Below are positions 6,690 through 15,485 of a stretch of 39,147 nt of DNA, in pieces; position 1 is the stretch's first letter; each line of letters starts with the position of its first letter. Origin of the DNA: Bacteroidota bacterium (GTDB lineage Bacteria > Bacteroidota > Ignavibacteria > UBA10030); contig JAKAJH010000030.1 in assembly GCA_021813905.1 (NCBI GenBank), forward strand, positions 1-39,147. Direction: 5' to 3'. The notes beneath the pieces are model-generated. The model made no database searches, was not told the origin of the DNA, and saw nothing but the letters and a program-made list of their open reading frames with translations. The position numbers and the translations under genes are program-made.

Positions 6690-6941
6690 ATGTCTCACGC
6701 GCTCCCGCTTTCCGCTCCGGCAACCTTTCGCATGATGCGGTCGTCCCGACCGCCGGCGGATCTCGAACTTGAGCAGCTGAAAGAAGACTACCGCCGCCAG
6801 ATCATCAGCGCCGGCGATGATGTGAACCGCGACGGATTGCTGAAAACACCCGATCGTGGCACGCACCGGAGCGCCTGTTGTGCCGTCGGGGAGACTGGGA
6901 GGCAGGCCTCCGGAAGCGCGTCCGTGAGGGACAACAAATGA
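6690..6941 (+). pseudogene. Truncated GTP cyclohydrolase I (folE) remnant
   Basis: A well-placed Shine-Dalgarno (AAAGGAAG, about 6677-6684) precedes ATG 6690 and an 83-aa frame. Residues about 30-55 (LKEDYRRQIISAGDDVNRDG then LLKTPDR) match the N-terminal helix and the D-x-x-R-x-G-L-x-x-T-P-x-R signature of FolE. The expected continuation (VAKA and the whole catalytic domain with its Cys/His zinc ligands) is absent; the frame instead runs through unrelated residues to a stop overlapping the photolyase start (ATGA at 6938). A different frame of the same DNA reads WHAPERLLCRRGDWEAGL, which looks protein-like but was not recognised. The simplest reading is a deletion that removed most of folE and left a short translated leader coupled to the photolyase. 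FolE makes pterin precursors, so its loss may affect the antenna cofactor or be covered elsewhere. Confidence 0.6.
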
Positions 6942-8392
6942 GACGGTCAGCATCGGAGCAGCAGGGTGGCGAACGGCCCATCGTGGTCTGGTTTCGCCGC
7001 GATCTGCGGGTCGACGACAATCCGGCGCTGATCGAAGCCGTGCGGAGCGGAGCCGCGGTCATTCCGCTCTTTGTGGTGGACACAAAGTTGATTTCCGCAT
7101 TGCCATCCGACGGGGCGGCGTTCGATCTCCAGGCGGGCGCTCTCCGCGAACTCGAGGACATGATTCGCAGGCGCGGTGGGACCTTGCTGCTCCGTCACGG
7201 CGATGGGGAAGATGTGCATCGCAGCGTCATCCGCGACTTCCAGCCATCCGCCCTCTATTTCAACCGGGATTATGAACCTTCCGCCCGGACTCGGGACGAG
7301 CGGATCATTCGGCTTTACCGCACGGCGGGGATCGACGTGCGCACGTTCAAAGATGCCGTGATCTTTGAGCCGGATGAAGTGCTGACGGTTGATGGCCGGC
7401 CCTACGTTGTGTTTACGCCATTTGCGAACACCTGGAAACGACTTCCGGCGCCGTCTCCCCGATCCGCTCCGCGCCGCATCAGGACGCCCGAGCTCTCCGG
7501 CGGAGGCGTTCCGGATGCACGCTCACTGGGACGGAAAACGGCCGTGTCTGCACCGATCGCCACCGGGGGAGAACGCGCTGCGCGCAAGCGATGGGAGTGG
7601 TTTCTGCGGAACGGTCTGGCGAACTACGATCGGGGGCGCGATCTTCCGGCGATCGACGGCACCAGCCGAATGTCTCCGTATCTTCGATTCGGAACCATCT
7701 CGGTCCGGCGGATGGTGGAGGATGTGAGGGAAGCGATCGACGCGGGTGACGCGGCAGCGTCGGCATCCGCGCGCAAGTATCTCGACGAACTCATCTGGCG
7801 GGAATTCTATCAGGCCGTACTCTATCACTTCCCCCGGGTCACGACGGGCAACTTCCGGCAGCAGTTCGATGCGCTACGCTGGCGTACGAACAGCCGCTAC
7901 TTTGAAGCGTGGAAAGAGGGACGCACCGGAGTGCCCCTTGTTGATGCCGGGATGCGGCAGTTGAACGAGACGGGGTGGATGCACAACCGGATGCGGATGG
8001 TCGTCGCATCGTTTCTGACAAAAGATCTGCTGATCGACTGGAAACGAGGAGAGAAATATTTCGCGTCAAAGCTGCTCGACGCGGATACGGCGGCGAACAA
8101 CGGCGGCTGGCAGTGGGCGGCCTCCACCGGGGTCGATCCCAAACCGCTCAGGATCTTCAATCCCCGATTGCAGGGGGAGCGATATGATCCGGAGGGGGAC
8201 TACATCCGGCGGTACGTGCCGGAGCTGGAAGATGTGCCGACGGAATTCATTCATGCACCTCACGAGATGCCGGGGCAACTGCAGCACGAGCTGAGGTGTG
8301 TCATCGGTCGGCGCTATCCCGCGCCGATCGTGGATCACGCTTCCGCGGCGGCTATCTACAGAAAGCTCTTCGCCTCCGTCAAACATCCCTAG
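6938..8392 (+). CDS. phr: Deoxyribodipyrimidine (CPD) photolyase, class I
   Basis: ATG 6938 gives 484 aa; GAGGGA lies just upstream and the start overlaps the folE-remnant stop. The N-terminal antenna domain begins IVVWFRRDLRVDDNPAL, the standard photolyase opening. The FAD domain has SRMSPYLRFGTIS, ARKYLDELIWREFYQ, WMHNRMRMVVASFLTKDLL, the DADTAANNGGWQWAAS block and RIFNPRLQGERYDPEGDYIR, all close to class I CPD photolyases such as E. coli PhrB. The enzyme uses blue light and reduced FAD to split cyclobutane pyrimidine dimers. A frame extension to 6878 exists but adds residues absent from the family. The position behind a CarH-like repressor predicts light induction. The gene ends convergently with a thioesterase, across an octamer repeat array. 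Confidence 0.95.
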   Translation: MRRSASEQQGGERPIVVWFRRDLRVDDNPALIEAVRSGAAVIPLFVVDTKLISALPSDGAAFDLQAGALRELEDMIRRRGGTLLLRHGDGEDVHRSVIRDFQPSALYFNRDYEPSARTRDERIIRLYRTAGIDVRTFKDAVIFEPDEVLTVDGRPYVVFTPFANTWKRLPAPSPRSAPRRIRTPELSGGGVPDARSLGRKTAVSAPIATGGERAARKRWEWFLRNGLANYDRGRDLPAIDGTSRMSPYLRFGTISVRRMVEDVREAIDAGDAAASASARKYLDELIWREFYQAVLYHFPRVTTGNFRQQFDALRWRTNSRYFEAWKEGRTGVPLVDAGMRQLNETGWMHNRMRMVVASFLTKDLLIDWKRGEKYFASKLLDADTAANNGGWQWAASTGVDPKPLRIFNPRLQGERYDPEGDYIRRYVPELEDVPTEFIHAPHEMPGQLQHELRCVIGRRYPAPIVDHASAAAIYRKLFASVKHP

Positions 8393-9713: not shown

Positions 9714-10214
9714 CTACCGAAGGACCTCCGGCGGATCAAGCGCGCTTTCGCAACGGTGGCCGGCACGCTTGAGTGCTTGCTCGATCACTTCAGAAGAAAA
9801 CGGCGGCGGGGTTGTCGATGAGGATGGGGAGGACTGAGACTGTGGACGACAAGCTTTGCACAGGACACGGGCATTGTCGAGCCCGTTCCCCCAGTCCGTC
9901 CGGATGTGATACACGCCAAGCGAAGTTGTTCGGGTGCAGCGCGCCATGTCTGTGTGCTCCACGGGCGCCTCCCCGGGAATGACCGTCCGATCTGTCTGGA
10001 CTGCCGTCACTTTGAAGATACGCCAACGGCGATCGACATGCAACCCATTCTCGCGGGGAGAAAGGAATGGCGGGGCTGTCGAGGGAGTATCCGTACTTGT
10101 ACGGATGTGCGGAGTCCGTATTCGTACGGATTGTTTCCGCCTCCGCGGAGTGGTACCGTGGCGGCAAAGGGAGGGATCTTTGTCTCTGTGAGCAAGCGCC
10201 GGGTGGTCGCGCAT
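9714..10214 (-). pseudogene. Possible decayed HNH-endonuclease-like sequence
   Basis: A minus-strand open frame contains pieces that look like HNH proteins: YHIRTDWGNGLDNARVLCKA resembles the second half of an HNH motif, and a Pro/Ser linker is followed by FSSEVIEQALKRAGHRCE, which resembles the start of another HNH module. The upstream third of the frame has no protein-like character, the paired zinc Cys residues are missing, and the frame stops shortly after RCE. Two other frames are equally open, and base composition alone could explain that. It may be a remnant of a selfish or restriction-type gene. I would not treat it as an active enzyme. The surrounding 9681-10379 has no other gene I can support. 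Confidence 0.27.
10089..10130. promoter_or_regulatory. Tandem pair of near-identical palindromes (operator-like)
   Basis: The first is ATCCGTAC-TT-GTACGGAT (10089-10106), a perfect 8-bp inverted repeat. The second is TCCGTA-TTCG-TACGGA (10115-10130). Their 16-bp cores share TCCGTA at the left and GTACGGA at the right and start 25 bp apart (10090 and 10115). Repeated symmetric sites of this size are typical of dimeric transcription factors. They lie 250 bp before the duplicated-domain gene in otherwise non-coding DNA. The binding protein is unknown. Confidence 0.5.
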
Positions 10215-10379: not shown

Positions 10380-11132
10380 ATGAGGCATACACCAGACACC
10401 ATCCCTTCGTTCGTTGACAATCTCGCACGGCGGCCCGCACTGGGCGCGTCCGCGGCATTTCGCCAATTCCTGCTGACCGGAGAAGAGGAACACCACGTCG
10501 CAATCAGCGACGCGGCACGGCTGACGGCTAACGCTCGGGCCATGGCAAGGCCGGACGCCGTGAACGCGTTCATCTACGGACGCAGGGTGCTCGACCGGAT
10601 GCTGGCGCAATCGGCGTGTGTGGGCATCCGGGCATACTACGGGCTGCACCCGAACGGAATGCCGACATTCGTGCTGAGCGGCGTGAAACCGGACGGTGCG
10701 GACATCGTGGACGGCGTGCTGGCACAGGACCCGGTGTTGCGCCCGGCATGGTGCGGCGCGGCGAACGTGCTCAACACCGGTGGGCGCGTCGAAGATCTCG
10801 AAAGCATTCGCCCGGAAGTTCTGCTGACAGGCGCTGAGAATTCCGGAGTCACTCCGGCAGAAGCCTCACGGTCCACCCGACTCTACCGGATCACAAGAAT
10901 ATCGGGATCGCTGAAAGCACACTTCTTCGGCCGGGCCATCGCTGAGGAGGTCCTTGGTCAAGCCGGGTGCGTCGGCCTGCGGCTCTATCGGGCGCGGGAA
11001 GAGAATGGTCGCCGGACGCTGGTCCTCGTCGGCGTCGATGAGCTCGGAAACGATCTTGTGTCCGGCATCCTGGGCGAGCACGTGCTGGATTGTCCGCCCT
11101 GGTGCAGCGAGGTGAATTCGTTGAACGGATGA
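10380..11132 (+). CDS. Unknown protein with two tandem copies of a ~73-aa domain
   Basis: I do not recognise a named family for this 250-aa protein. It starts at ATG 10380 after GGAGAT. There is no signal peptide or membrane segment. Residues 61-133 and 178-250 align without a gap; by hand I count about 28 identities in 73 columns. Both copies carry CVG[IL]R, an NG turn, a G-x-D-x-V-x-G-[VI]-L strand-helix block and P-x-W-C followed by N-x-L-N near the end. Residues 1-60 are a helical, Ala/Arg-rich cap (FRQFLLTGEEEHHVAISDAA) preceding copy one; a shorter linker precedes copy two. I recall similar single-copy hypothetical proteins in Bacteroidota, but have not checked. Upstream DNA has paired palindromes and leader hairpins; a two-component operon lies downstream behind a terminator. 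Confidence 0.75.
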   Translation: MRHTPDTIPSFVDNLARRPALGASAAFRQFLLTGEEEHHVAISDAARLTANARAMARPDAVNAFIYGRRVLDRMLAQSACVGIRAYYGLHPNGMPTFVLSGVKPDGADIVDGVLAQDPVLRPAWCGAANVLNTGGRVEDLESIRPEVLLTGAENSGVTPAEASRSTRLYRITRISGSLKAHFFGRAIAEEVLGQAGCVGLRLYRAREENGRRTLVLVGVDELGNDLVSGILGEHVLDCPPWCSEVNSLNG

Positions 11133-11301: not shown

Positions 11302-11943
11302 ATGCTCCTGTGGGTCTTCCCGATTCTCTCCATCATCTCGCAGTTCGTTCCCGTGGTGACGGCGACCCGAACATTCCGGTTCCTGCCGCGTGAACTGAGA
11401 GTGCTTTCCTGGTATTTCTATTTCTCCATCGTTTCCGGAGCCATCCAGATCGCGCTCGCGTTGACCAGCACGAGGAATCTCTGGGTTTCCCAGGGATGGG
11501 TACCGGTGCAGTTCGCGCTGGTTATGTATCCCCTGGCGATTTGGCAGCCCGTACGGGGACTGCGCCGCGCGGTGCTTCTCTCCATCCCCCTCTACATCGT
11601 CGCATGGGGCGGTGTGCTTGCCTGGCTGGGCGACATGACCGCGATGAGCACGTACATGCGGCCGGTGGCGGGGATACTGCTGATCGGCGTCTCCATCGTG
11701 CTTCTCGTGCGGATCCTCTTCGATGAACGCCATCCGGCGGTCGAGCAGGCGCAATTCTGGACCGCGACGGCAACCCTCATGTACTTCGGCGGAACGATCG
11801 TGTTCTATGCCATGGTTCCGCTCCTGCTGACCTTGCCGCTGCAGCAGATGCGAATCGCCTGGTCGTCCCAGTCTGTGCTGAACGTCATCGCGAACCTTTT
11901 CTACGCGAAGGCCTTCCTGTGCGTGGATCGCCGATCGAACTGA
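11302..11943 (+). CDS. Multi-pass membrane protein, probable sensor partner of the downstream kinase
   Basis: ATG 11302 gives 213 aa, nearly all hydrophobic helices (about seven) separated by short polar loops, with no enzymatic motif. The longer frame from TTG 11203 would add a Pro/Arg-rich leader without membrane character, so ATG 11302 is preferred. The layout resembles the N-terminal membrane parts of sensor kinases with seven helices, but here the segment is a separate gene that overlaps the kinase start by 25 bp (11919-11943). The likely role is signal reception or anchoring for the kinase, which has only one membrane helix of its own. This is inferred from position. Family unrecognised. 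Confidence 0.75.
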   Translation: MLLWVFPILSIISQFVPVVTATRTFRFLPRELRVLSWYFYFSIVSGAIQIALALTSTRNLWVSQGWVPVQFALVMYPLAIWQPVRGLRRAVLLSIPLYIVAWGGVLAWLGDMTAMSTYMRPVAGILLIGVSIVLLVRILFDERHPAVEQAQFWTATATLMYFGGTIVFYAMVPLLLTLPLQQMRIAWSSQSVLNVIANLFYAKAFLCVDRRSN

Positions 11944-13121
11944 TCTGGGCCGTCATCATCGGCGCCGTCGTGTTCGTGGTCCTCGGCGCTGCGCTGGTGA
12001 TCTCGGTCGTCGTGAGTCAGCGCCGCCGGTTGGTGCTGCGGCAGAAGATGCTCGACGAACTGCGGAAGAGCGAGGAGCGCTACCGCAGTCTTGTCGAAAA
12101 TATCAGCGAGATCTACTGCGTCCTCGACGAACAGCGCCGGATCATCTACGGAAGCCCGAACCTCTTTGACATCACCGGACGAACCCCGGAGGAACTGGCG
12201 GGTCGGCCGTACGAACGGCTGATCGACCGCAAAGACCGCAGGCGTGTCGTATCGCTTCTGGACAAGAGTCGAACCGACCATGCGCAGGATTTTGTCTGCG
12301 AGTTCCGGCTGCTTCGGCGGCGATACCCGCCTGTGTGGGTGGAGCAGAATACCCGGGTGGTCCGCGACGATCGGGGGACGATCCGGGAATACCGGCATCT
12401 GCTCCGGGATATCACGGAGCGGAAGGCGAACGAAGAGATCATGCGCGGCCTGTCCGGGCGGGTGATGGAAGCGCAGGAGCTGGAACGTCGCCGCGTTGCC
12501 CGCGAATTGCACGACGGCATTAATCAGCTGCTGTCGTCGGTCCAGTTTCGGCTGAAATCCATCGAGGAACGACGGTCCATCCAACCGGGCCGGGTCGTCC
12601 GTGGCGTGAGCGAGGCCCGCGAACTGATGGACGAGGCGATCCGCGAAGTGCGGCGGATCTCGCATAATCTGCGCCCGACCATCCTCGATGATTTCGGGCT
12701 TCTGGCTGCCGTGCGCAGTACCTGCGAGGAATTTCAGCTCCGCACCGGCATCGTGACGGTCGTGGACGCGGGCGGACTCGACGAACGACTGCCCGAGCAG
12801 ACCGAGCTGGTGCTCTTCCGCGTCATTCAGGAAGCGTTGACGAACATCGAGCGTCACTCCGGCGCACGGAACGTCCGCATTCGGATGTCGCGACAGGAGC
12901 AGCACCTCTCCGTGCGTGTGAAGGATGATGGATGCGGATTCGAGCCGTCATCAGTGATCGGCGCGAAGGTCCGGCGACGCGGCCTCGGGCTCGACGGAAT
13001 GCGGGAGCGCACGGCGTCGATCGGGGGTTTGTGTGAGATCGTTTCACGAAAGAAGGGGGGAACGGAGATCATCCTGGAGATCCCGCTGGCATCGAGCGGC
13101 ACCAGCCAAGGGTTCGCATGA
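11919..13121 (+). CDS. PAS-containing NarL-type sensor histidine kinase
   Basis: The start GTG 11919 lies inside the preceding membrane gene and gives 400 aa. Residues about 8-30 form one membrane helix. A PAS domain follows (ERYRSLVENISEIYCVLDEQ to the PAC end YRHLLRDITERKANEE). The dimerisation/phosphoacceptor region is HisKA_3: ARELHDGINQLLSS with His198. The HATPase domain shows EALTNIERHSGA (N box), VKDDGCGF (G1) and RRGLGLDGMRERT (G2), ending with GGTEIILEIPL. Such kinases phosphorylate LuxR-type regulators, here the gene starting at 13118 (ATGA overlap). The signal is unknown; the PAS domain may bind a small ligand or cofactor. Confidence 0.93.
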   Translation: MRGSPIELIWAVIIGAVVFVVLGAALVISVVVSQRRRLVLRQKMLDELRKSEERYRSLVENISEIYCVLDEQRRIIYGSPNLFDITGRTPEELAGRPYERLIDRKDRRRVVSLLDKSRTDHAQDFVCEFRLLRRRYPPVWVEQNTRVVRDDRGTIREYRHLLRDITERKANEEIMRGLSGRVMEAQELERRRVARELHDGINQLLSSVQFRLKSIEERRSIQPGRVVRGVSEARELMDEAIREVRRISHNLRPTILDDFGLLAAVRSTCEEFQLRTGIVTVVDAGGLDERLPEQTELVLFRVIQEALTNIERHSGARNVRIRMSRQEQHLSVRVKDDGCGFEPSSVIGAKVRRRGLGLDGMRERTASIGGLCEIVSRKKGGTEIILEIPLASSGTSQGFA

Positions 13122-13786
13122 TTACGAAAACGCATGACAAGATCCGCGTCCTGATCGCGGATGACCACCCGGTGGTCCGGGACGGCGTCCGGACCGCACT
13201 GATGGAACAGCGGCAGATCGAAGTCGTCGGCGAAGCCGGCACCGGACGTCAGGCGGTTGCCCAGGCGCTGAAACACCGCCCGGATGTCGTCCTGATGGAT
13301 GTCAGCATGCCCGTGATGGGCGGCGCGGAAGCCACACGCCGGATCCGCAAACGCGACCCGTCCATCCGCGTGCTCGCCTTCAGCATGCACGACAGCCGGG
13401 AGTACATCCAGGAGATCATTCAGTCGGGGGCGTCCGGATATGTCCTCAAGACCACCTCCACGCTCGAGCTGGTTCGGGCCATTCGGAAGATCCGCGACGG
13501 CGGCACATTCTTCAGCCGGAGTGCGTCGGATGTGCTGGCCGACCAGTACGTCCGCCAATTCAGCCGCACCGGCATCCGGCCGTTCACCGTGCTGACGAAG
13601 CGGGAACTGGAGATATTGGGCCACATCGCTCAGGGCAAGAGCAACAAAGAGATCGCCCGCGCATGCGGCGTGAGCTTCCGGACCGTCGAATCCCATCGGG
13701 GGCATATCATGGAGAAGCTCGACCTCCACGATGTGGCGAGCCTCATACGATTCGCGATCGCAAAAGGATTGATCCTGCCGAAGTGA
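13118..13786 (+). CDS. NarL/LuxR-family response regulator
   Basis: ATG 13118 overlaps the kinase stop and gives 222 aa, the normal size. The receiver domain has the acidic pair in LIADDHPVVRDGV, the phosphoacceptor Asp61 in VVLMDVSMPVMGG, and Ser/Lys positions in LAFSMHD and GYVLKTTS. After a linker, the LuxR-type helix-turn-helix is clear: LTKRELEILGHIAQGKSNKE, then RTVESHRGHIMEKLDLHD. It is the cognate regulator of the upstream kinase by translational overlap. The target genes cannot be told; the palindromes at 10089-10130 are about 3 kb upstream and are one possible site class. Confidence 0.95.
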   Translation: MITKTHDKIRVLIADDHPVVRDGVRTALMEQRQIEVVGEAGTGRQAVAQALKHRPDVVLMDVSMPVMGGAEATRRIRKRDPSIRVLAFSMHDSREYIQEIIQSGASGYVLKTTSTLELVRAIRKIRDGGTFFSRSASDVLADQYVRQFSRTGIRPFTVLTKRELEILGHIAQGKSNKEIARACGVSFRTVESHRGHIMEKLDLHDVASLIRFAIAKGLILPK

Positions 13787-14243: not shown

Positions 14244-15485
14244 TCAGGAACCCGAATGTTCCGCGGTCGGGTCGACGATCTTGCCGATGAAGATGATCCC
14301 GCCGGTCGAATGCTCCCGGATGGCGAACAGGAACGGCCGGTCCACGTCCATCCGGATCTCATGCGGCTGGACGCTGGTCACGTAGATCGATACCACGGTG
14401 ACCGCGGCCGCTTCGGTTCCCTCCTCGTTCACTTCCACGAACGTCTTGTGGATCACGTCGCTGATGGCAAGCGGGAAATTCGGATTGATGCGCGAGAAAT
14501 TCGCCGCCGGGGTGAATGCGATGCCCATCCCCATCGCCGAAAGCGGCCCCGGCAGATACTGTCCGTACTCGAGTTTGAATCGGGGGAAGGAGAGGACGAC
14601 CTCCGATTCCTGCAGCCCGCCGGTCAGCGACTGCCAGCGCTCATCGCTGAGCGAAGAGGCGAACGCGTCGATGTCGGCACCGGCAGCCGGCAGCAGCACG
14701 GTCATGCTGTACGCCCCGCCGCCGTACGGCAGATCGATCACCTGCACGCTGTCCGTGACGCCGTACCGGAGATCGGCCTTCTGGTGCATCATCCTGCACG
14801 TGACCGTCGAACCGTCCGGCCGCGTGAACGGACCGTCGACGGTCTGATCCGGCGCGAACTGGTATGTCCACGTTCCTTTGAAATACAACGCGTTGATCAG
14901 GAACATCACGACGCTCGGGTCGATGGTGTCGAGCACTTTCGGGATCTTCTCGTGGGTCTTCTCGTTGATCCATCCGTTGATGATGTCCACCGCACCGGCA
15001 CTGCTGAAGTCGAGCGATCGGACCTCCGCGTTGAAGGCGCTCGTGTTGTCGGCGATGAATGACGGTTCGACGGAGAAACCGGTGCGATACCAAAGCGAAT
15101 TGGCGTTGTCGAACGTGACGAGAGGATCGAGCAGCGGCAGCGCGGTCAGAATTGTGCGGTAGGAATCGTTGATCTGTTGACGGGTCAGCTCTCCGAGGTT
15201 CAGAGCGGCCTGCATCGAATCGAACGTCGTTCCCTCGGCTCCGTTCAGGGTCATGCCGAGGGCGATCGAGACGCTCAGCGGAGAGATGAAGAGGTTCTTC
15301 CCGGCCTGCTCGGCATTTGCCGCCGCGAGGAGGCGAAAGCCGAATGTATTGGCGGACGAAAAGGCCTGTTTCTCGAGCGAAGTGAATTCCGGCGGTGTGA
15401 CGATCGGGTCCGGAACGGTTGGATCGTCTTTGCACGATGCGAACAGCGCAAGCGCGAGGATGCCGGTAATGACCAGCGGTCGCAT
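14244..15485 (-). CDS. Lipoprotein serpin (serine protease inhibitor)
   Basis: 413 aa from ATG 15485, preceded by GGAGG at 5 nt. A lipoprotein signal (LALALFASC) puts it in the envelope, followed by a short Pro/Thr-rich tether. The body is a complete serpin: NLFISPLSVSIALGMTLNGA, INGWINEKTHEKIP, INALYFKGTW, and the C-terminal RPFLFAIREHSTGGIIFIG. The reactive-centre hinge EEGTEAAAVT has the small P12-P10 Ala residues needed for inhibitory loop insertion. Counting from the conserved hinge Glu as P17, P1-P1' is Thr-Ser. That suggests an elastase- or subtilisin-like target, but loop length makes it provisional. Serpins are uncommon in bacteria; this one probably guards the cell surface against host, prey or competitor proteases. 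Confidence 0.95.
   Translation of the reverse strand: MRPLVITGILALALFASCKDDPTVPDPIVTPPEFTSLEKQAFSSANTFGFRLLAAANAEQAGKNLFISPLSVSIALGMTLNGAEGTTFDSMQAALNLGELTRQQINDSYRTILTALPLLDPLVTFDNANSLWYRTGFSVEPSFIADNTSAFNAEVRSLDFSSAGAVDIINGWINEKTHEKIPKVLDTIDPSVVMFLINALYFKGTWTYQFAPDQTVDGPFTRPDGSTVTCRMMHQKADLRYGVTDSVQVIDLPYGGGAYSMTVLLPAAGADIDAFASSLSDERWQSLTGGLQESEVVLSFPRFKLEYGQYLPGPLSAMGMGIAFTPAANFSRINPNFPLAISDVIHKTFVEVNEEGTEAAAVTVVSIYVTSVQPHEIRMDVDRPFLFAIREHSTGGIIFIGKIVDPTAEHSGS

Follow-up and report, generated by a model that had tools for sequence, protein, structure and literature searches.

A duplicated, undescribed domain as a probable partner of a seven-helix membrane protein in the proposed split sensor of a Bacteroidota two-component operon

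The stretch of Bacteroidota DNA analysed here (hereafter the window; 39,147 nucleotides) contains an open reading frame (ORF) at positions 10380-11132 of the + strand, and this ORF is a real gene with a duplicated, undescribed domain, which we refer to as DOM. Our preferred reading, to which we assign a probability of roughly 0.6, is that it belongs to a four-gene two-component operon in which the sensor, composed of DOM and a seven-helix membrane protein (TM7), is split off from the histidine kinase, and in which a NarL-type response regulator acts on palindromes in the operon leader. Far from being an isolated oddity, DOM is a regular component of a probable, so far undescribed sensor module set on ordinary two-component outputs.

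Results

Internal duplication of the DOM gene

The DOM gene begins with ATG and encodes a protein of 250 aa with two domain copies and without an N-terminal membrane anchor. An earlier note, made from the sequence of this DNA, had described the protein as two ungapped copies of an unnamed domain of ~73 aa. Direct alignment of residues 61-133 with residues 178-250 revealed exactly 28 identities in 73 ungapped positions, while the mean over 20,000 shuffles was 5.2 and the highest value 15, and the presence of two copies is thereby borne out. The length has to be revised: in local alignment, the duplication extends N-terminally and comprises ~99 residues per copy (residues 34-132 and 151-249, 35% identity), with a Smith-Waterman (SW) score of 160 compared with 49 for the best of 2000 shuffles. 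The family profile, whose seed sequences include both window copies, matches the two halves separately (i-E 1.7e-32 and 5.5e-36). Copy 2 (10830-11126, + strand) is the canonical copy and ends in DCPPWC, thus retaining CPPWC, and copy 1 (10479-10775, + strand) is a diverged copy in which RPAWC replaces CPPxC and the first Cys is lost; perhaps copy 1 has been retained for a pseudo-dimeric arrangement. The ORF is coding because homologues are present in many genomes, in agreement with the opinion that the gene is not junk.

Distribution and conserved motifs of DOM

Is DOM a member of a family that is already known? Searches of Pfam, NCBIfam, PHROGs and PDB sequences with DOM returned chance-level matches only. 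None of 23 DOM relatives had a Pfam match, a GAF match being likewise missing for the window protein and for every one of these relatives, and a profile built from the 23 relatives found nothing in the PDB. Phage and plasmid collections contained no DOM match, and a phage or plasmid origin was rejected on this ground. Of 61 relatives, 30 contain homologues, as do 28 genomes in an even sample of 394 from the phylum and one Zixibacteria contig; among named contigs, close relatives occur in Bacteroidetes/Ignavibacteriae MAGs, with one in Zixibacteria. In the contig scan, the full-length window protein as a query found nothing, whereas a narrower alignment recovered homologues. The profile search suggested in the earlier note thus yielded homologues, none from a known family, and the single-copy forms sought there make up the majority: these are single-domain proteins of 100-150 aa, and two-copy forms were seen in the window and at three other loci (L022, L023 and L024). 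With homologues outside this genome and assignment to no known characterised family in the libraries searched, the designation of the domain as unnamed stands. One further candidate, a DOM copy fused inside the L005/L022 kinase (E 2e-4 by blastp, the database being tiny), was rejected because the match sits in the PAS region and is not listed by the DOM profile.

The consensus core of DOM reads ENHxIxLxxA ... GGYFGRxxxxKILxQxGCVGxRxYYAxxDDGxPTxVLVGVDxxGxDM ... PCPPxC. Near the C-terminus, 42 of the 46 DOM members carry a CPxxC-type C-x3-C motif (CPPxC-like in 32), and CPPxC is invariant within the 23-member alignment. The Cys of C-V-G-x-R is common, not invariant, and is replaced by A or V in some members. 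The earlier note had proposed that each copy carries a Cys pair, formed by C-V-G-x-R and W-C, that could bind metal or form a disulfide. The conserved pair is CPxxC instead, and since copy 1 lacks one Cys of this motif, the two copies cannot both carry the same CPxxC-based metal or disulfide site.

The CPxxC motif itself suggests metal or redox chemistry, and its conservation makes it possible to consider DOM as a metal- or redox-binding regulator, with the operon reporting metal or redox state. We regard this as possible, with odds well below even: the motif is missing from four members, the window's own copy 1 is short of one Cys, and metal- or redox-related genes were identified in none of the neighbourhoods, the annotation of which was not systematic.

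Prediction of the structure of a single domain, also proposed earlier, produced a model of limited use. The AlphaFold model of copy 2 (9 alignment rows, pLDDT 64) shows a helix-helix-strand-strand-strand succession with low confidence at the CPPWC end. In a Foldseek search with this weak model, the best E was 0.6 and no PDB fold was matched; a known fold for DOM was rejected on this value, and a pLDDT of 64 is too weak for the fold to be called new.

TM7 and its linkage to DOM

The gene that follows DOM in the window, TM7 (11302-11943, + strand; the open frame reaches back to 11203, and 11302 is the presumed start), encodes a seven-helix membrane protein without a Pfam family. Seven long helices were predicted for it with a pLDDT of 77 (8 alignment rows). 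The 7TMR-DISM family (PF07695) did not match the window TM7 and gave one weak match (E 0.034) among 8 TM7 members. Foldseek searches with the TM7 model returned nothing at E <= 0.001, and the best structural matches were class B GPCRs (VIA Z 7.7, rmsd 4.3, 184 residues), in the range of the helical-bundle background; kinship with GPCRs is not claimed because a Z of 7.7 does not rise above that background. A thiol relay from the CPxxC of DOM to a C-terminal Cys of TM7 was discarded, this Cys being mostly a trait of the window lineage and not tracking CPxxC.

How constant is the association of the two proteins? In a two-profile survey of 61 genomes, all 52 of 52 DOM matches had TM7 within 527 bp on the same strand, and a same-strand TM7 was found for every DOM gene at the 42 loci examined, these linkage counts not being independent, as genomes within one family are related. 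By genome, DOM was present in 30 and TM7 in 32 of the 61 (Fisher p 2e-15, uncorrected for relatedness). TM7 without DOM was observed in three genomes: in G004 a regulator directly follows TM7, in G008 the TM7 gene stands at the beginning of a contig, and in G012 it is a fragment. A DOM-profile match lacking TM7 (L097 in G190, E 2e-3) was taken as chance. The breadth of the association is a stronger argument than the counts: DOM and TM7 occur side by side throughout many families of the phylum and, moreover, in Zixibacteria (L048). The DOM-TM7 unit is repeated ahead of one kinase at L031 and L089, and extra TM7 genes precede one kinase at L088 and L098.

Such constant pairing of adjacent or overlapping genes, together with the lack of a match between DOM and any known ligand-binding family, is also what might be expected if DOM were a stabiliser, assembly factor or adaptor of TM7 with no sensing of its own. 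This seems unlikely to us, given that the TM7 of G004 lives without DOM and that duplicated, separately diverged copies would not be specially predicted.

Kinase, regulator and operon order

Examination of the neighbours of DOM homologues, which the earlier note had recommended, brought out what it had missed in the window itself: a constant TM7, usually accompanied by a kinase and a NarL-type regulator. The window's histidine kinase (11919-13121, + strand) consists of one N-terminal transmembrane (TM) helix, a PAS domain, HisKA_3 (2.8e-14) and HATPase_c (9.1e-15), and the NarL/LuxR-type response regulator (13118-13786, + strand) consists of Response_reg (4.3e-29) and GerE (4.8e-20). A HisKA_3 plus HATPase_c kinase and a receiver plus GerE regulator are thus encoded in the same operon, as in two-component systems. 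The strict order DOM-TM7-kinase-NarL regulator was found at 27 of 42 loci, several of the others being cut by contig ends. The third gene usually overlaps or abuts TM7, and its protein begins with a single TM helix and is usually a HisKA_3 kinase without an external domain; among 33 third proteins, HATPase_c was detected in 29, HisKA_3 in 24, HisKA in 7, PAS in ~14 and a fused receiver in 2. At L079 and L090 the kinase is only ~255 aa long and has no sensor domain of its own, and at L040 the third protein (165 aa) has no recognised domain. In Zixibacteria (L048, 7924-8832), the third protein is a membrane-anchored TM-PAS-GerE protein with no kinase domain, which, judging by its domains, is a direct transcription factor.

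Several other genes were observed around these operons. At the related loci L079 (5489-5929) and L082 (6320-6781), the gene of a small hydrophobic membrane protein lies between an operator pair and DOM, and the L079 protein has no Pfam match. In the window, a serpin-like ORF with a lipoprotein-type signal (LFASC) is convergent with the operon (14244-15485, - strand), and a DNA photolyase/cryptochrome-like ORF is located at 6878-8392 (+ strand); both were recognised by eye.

Since the output varies (HisKA_3, HisKA or LuxR-type HTH) while DOM and TM7 are constant, these two are probably the sensor, or input, of the module, and they would regulate the kinase. We infer a direct contact between DOM and TM7, and a sensing role for the pair rather than a mere tuning of the kinase. 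A bolder variant, which we hold to be improbable, is a stand-alone receptor: a free TM7 with a dedicated soluble DOM partner or ligand, the latter exported in some lineages, would act on interchangeable cytoplasmic outputs, either a kinase or a direct LuxR-type factor, reached through a single membrane helix, and the regulator would feed back on DOM expression.

Leader palindromes as candidate operators

The earlier note had ascribed to the gene a complex leader with palindromic sites. The palindromes are real, while the leader RNA does not appear to be structured: the folding z was -0.83 and Rfam gave no match, and a structured or riboswitch-like leader RNA was rejected on these results. Candidate operator 1 (10090-10105; TCCGTACTTGTACGGA) is a perfect 7-2-7 palindrome, TCCGTAC-TT-GTACGGA, and candidate operator 2 (10115-10130; TCCGTATTCGTACGGA) is a 7-2-7 palindrome with one mismatched pair, TCCGTAT-TC-GTACGGA. 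The two are 25 bp apart, and both have the NarL-type 7-2-7 geometry. In the 3.08-Mb genome, TCCGTAYNNGTACGGA has only two exact matches, both inside the DOM leader.

Among the relatives, TCCGTA-N4-TACGGA is present in 18 of 61 genomes. A tandem TCCGTA-type pair with the identical 25-bp spacing is located upstream of DOM at L022; at L026 there are three copies, in the interval that separates the regulator from the following gene, which encodes a second sensor kinase. At five loci (L122, L123, L126, L128 and L129) a NarL-type regulator gene precedes the site by ~55-165 bp and is, in the case of L126, part of a TM7-kinase-regulator operon; in several other fetched regions with a TCCGTA site, a regulator gene is absent beside it. 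Palindromes are recognisable in 8 of 46 DOM upstream regions. GTA-N4-TAC palindromes are enriched upstream of DOM (9 of 36, within 3.4% of the bases; p 2e-6, calculated only once the motif had been chosen from those very sequences). At L079 and L082 the tandem pair has another sequence, TACGTA-N4-TACGTA, with a spacing of 33 bp; it stands both before the operon, where the gene of the small membrane protein follows, and immediately after the regulator. The regulators beside TCCGTA sites have the recognition helix R-T-[VI]-x-[TS]-[HQ]-R, and those of L079 and L082 have the same pattern. At the same two loci (L079, 2760-2960; L082, 3510-3650), the TACGTA pair downstream of the regulator is followed within ~150 nt by a GC-rich hairpin and a T run, with no evident ORF between; this region could represent a regulator-controlled small RNA.

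Because in relatives the motif recurs upstream of the operon or just downstream of NarL-type regulators, the regulator probably autoregulates. E. coli NarL binds, as a dimer, inverted heptamers with a 2-bp gap (PMC4549865), and this makes control of the operon by its own regulator likely as far as sequence can indicate. We infer that the regulator at 13118-13786 binds the leader palindromes.

Cellular compartment of DOM

Another important question is where DOM is located. An N-terminal hydrophobic anchor was found in 14 of 46 DOM members, in which the domain is probably placed in the periplasm, and 32 of 46, including that of the window, have none. In the operons L038 and L039, DOM copies with and without the anchor are encoded beside one TM7.

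If the anchor is taken as a signal-like segment, DOM could be an exported signal and the free-standing, constantly paired seven-helix TM7 its receptor, serving cell-cell or autocrine communication with positive feedback through the operators upstream of DOM. We consider this rather doubtful, in view of the leaderless majority, of the size and conservation of the domain, which are large for a signal, and of the two copies of differing type beside a single TM7 at L038 and L039. A chance association with the operon, with DOM serving some other purpose such as enzymatic catalysis, would accord with its matching no known fold (in a weak model) but is highly improbable, given that every one of the DOM matches is TM7-linked and that the link persists from family to family and into a second phylum.

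Discussion

Under the split-sensor reading, the first of the four genes would provide DOM as a small soluble accessory sensor domain acting with TM7, and the two would control the kinase (11919-13121) through its single N-terminal membrane helix. Kinase activity would set the phosphorylation of the NarL-type regulator (13118-13786), and this regulator would bind the tandem sites at 10090 and 10115 and regulate its own operon; in relatives, such sites also lie next to other genes. The points that speak against this reading are the mixed compartment of DOM (anchor in 14 of 46), the DOM-less TM7 of G004, the operator palindromes in just 8 of 46 upstream regions, the choice of the motif from the very sequences used for the enrichment p value, the occurrence of some sites without a regulator and the weakness of the DOM model (pLDDT 64), which matches no known fold.

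If the split-sensor reading is right, a sensory module exists in several Bacteroidota families and in Zixibacteria, consisting of two protein families undescribed in the libraries searched. It would offer a testable input (DOM-TM7), a one-helix connection and a predicted operator, opening the way to annotation in many genomes and to assays in a culturable organism. A literature search found nothing on the operator motif or on the DOM-TM7-kinase-regulator arrangement. The closest known systems are compared part by part.

With regard to the operator, the inverted heptamers with a 2-bp gap bound by E. coli NarL have the geometry of both leader sites (PMC4549865), whereas the half-site is TCCGTAC here and of the TACCCCT type in the engineered narG site. 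With regard to the soluble partner, the NreABC system of Staphylococcus is similar in that a small soluble protein modulates a kinase feeding a response regulator: soluble NreA inhibits the kinase NreB when nitrate is absent, and NreB has its own Fe-S sensor (PMC8139620). NreA, however, is a GAF nitrate receptor, and DOM has neither GAF nor another Pfam match. NreABC is not known to have a seven-helix membrane partner.

LiaFSR/VraTSR and UhpABC share with the window's operon a kinase with little external domain, a separate membrane controller and a NarL-family regulator. Their kinases are under separate membrane proteins, LiaF/VraT and UhpC, which by description are unlike TM7 in size and kind, and none of these systems is known to have a DOM-like soluble constant partner. 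Control by membrane accessory proteins is described for intramembrane-sensing kinases (review PMC8534201). The 7TMR-DISM proteins (PF07695) resemble TM7 in that they, too, are bacterial and link seven membrane helices to a signalling output. Their 7TM region is contained within a larger protein and fused to the output, whereas TM7 is free-standing and ~210 aa long. Lying outside their families as far as compared, the system of the window resembles, in its arrangement, NreABC and the kinases with membrane accessory proteins.
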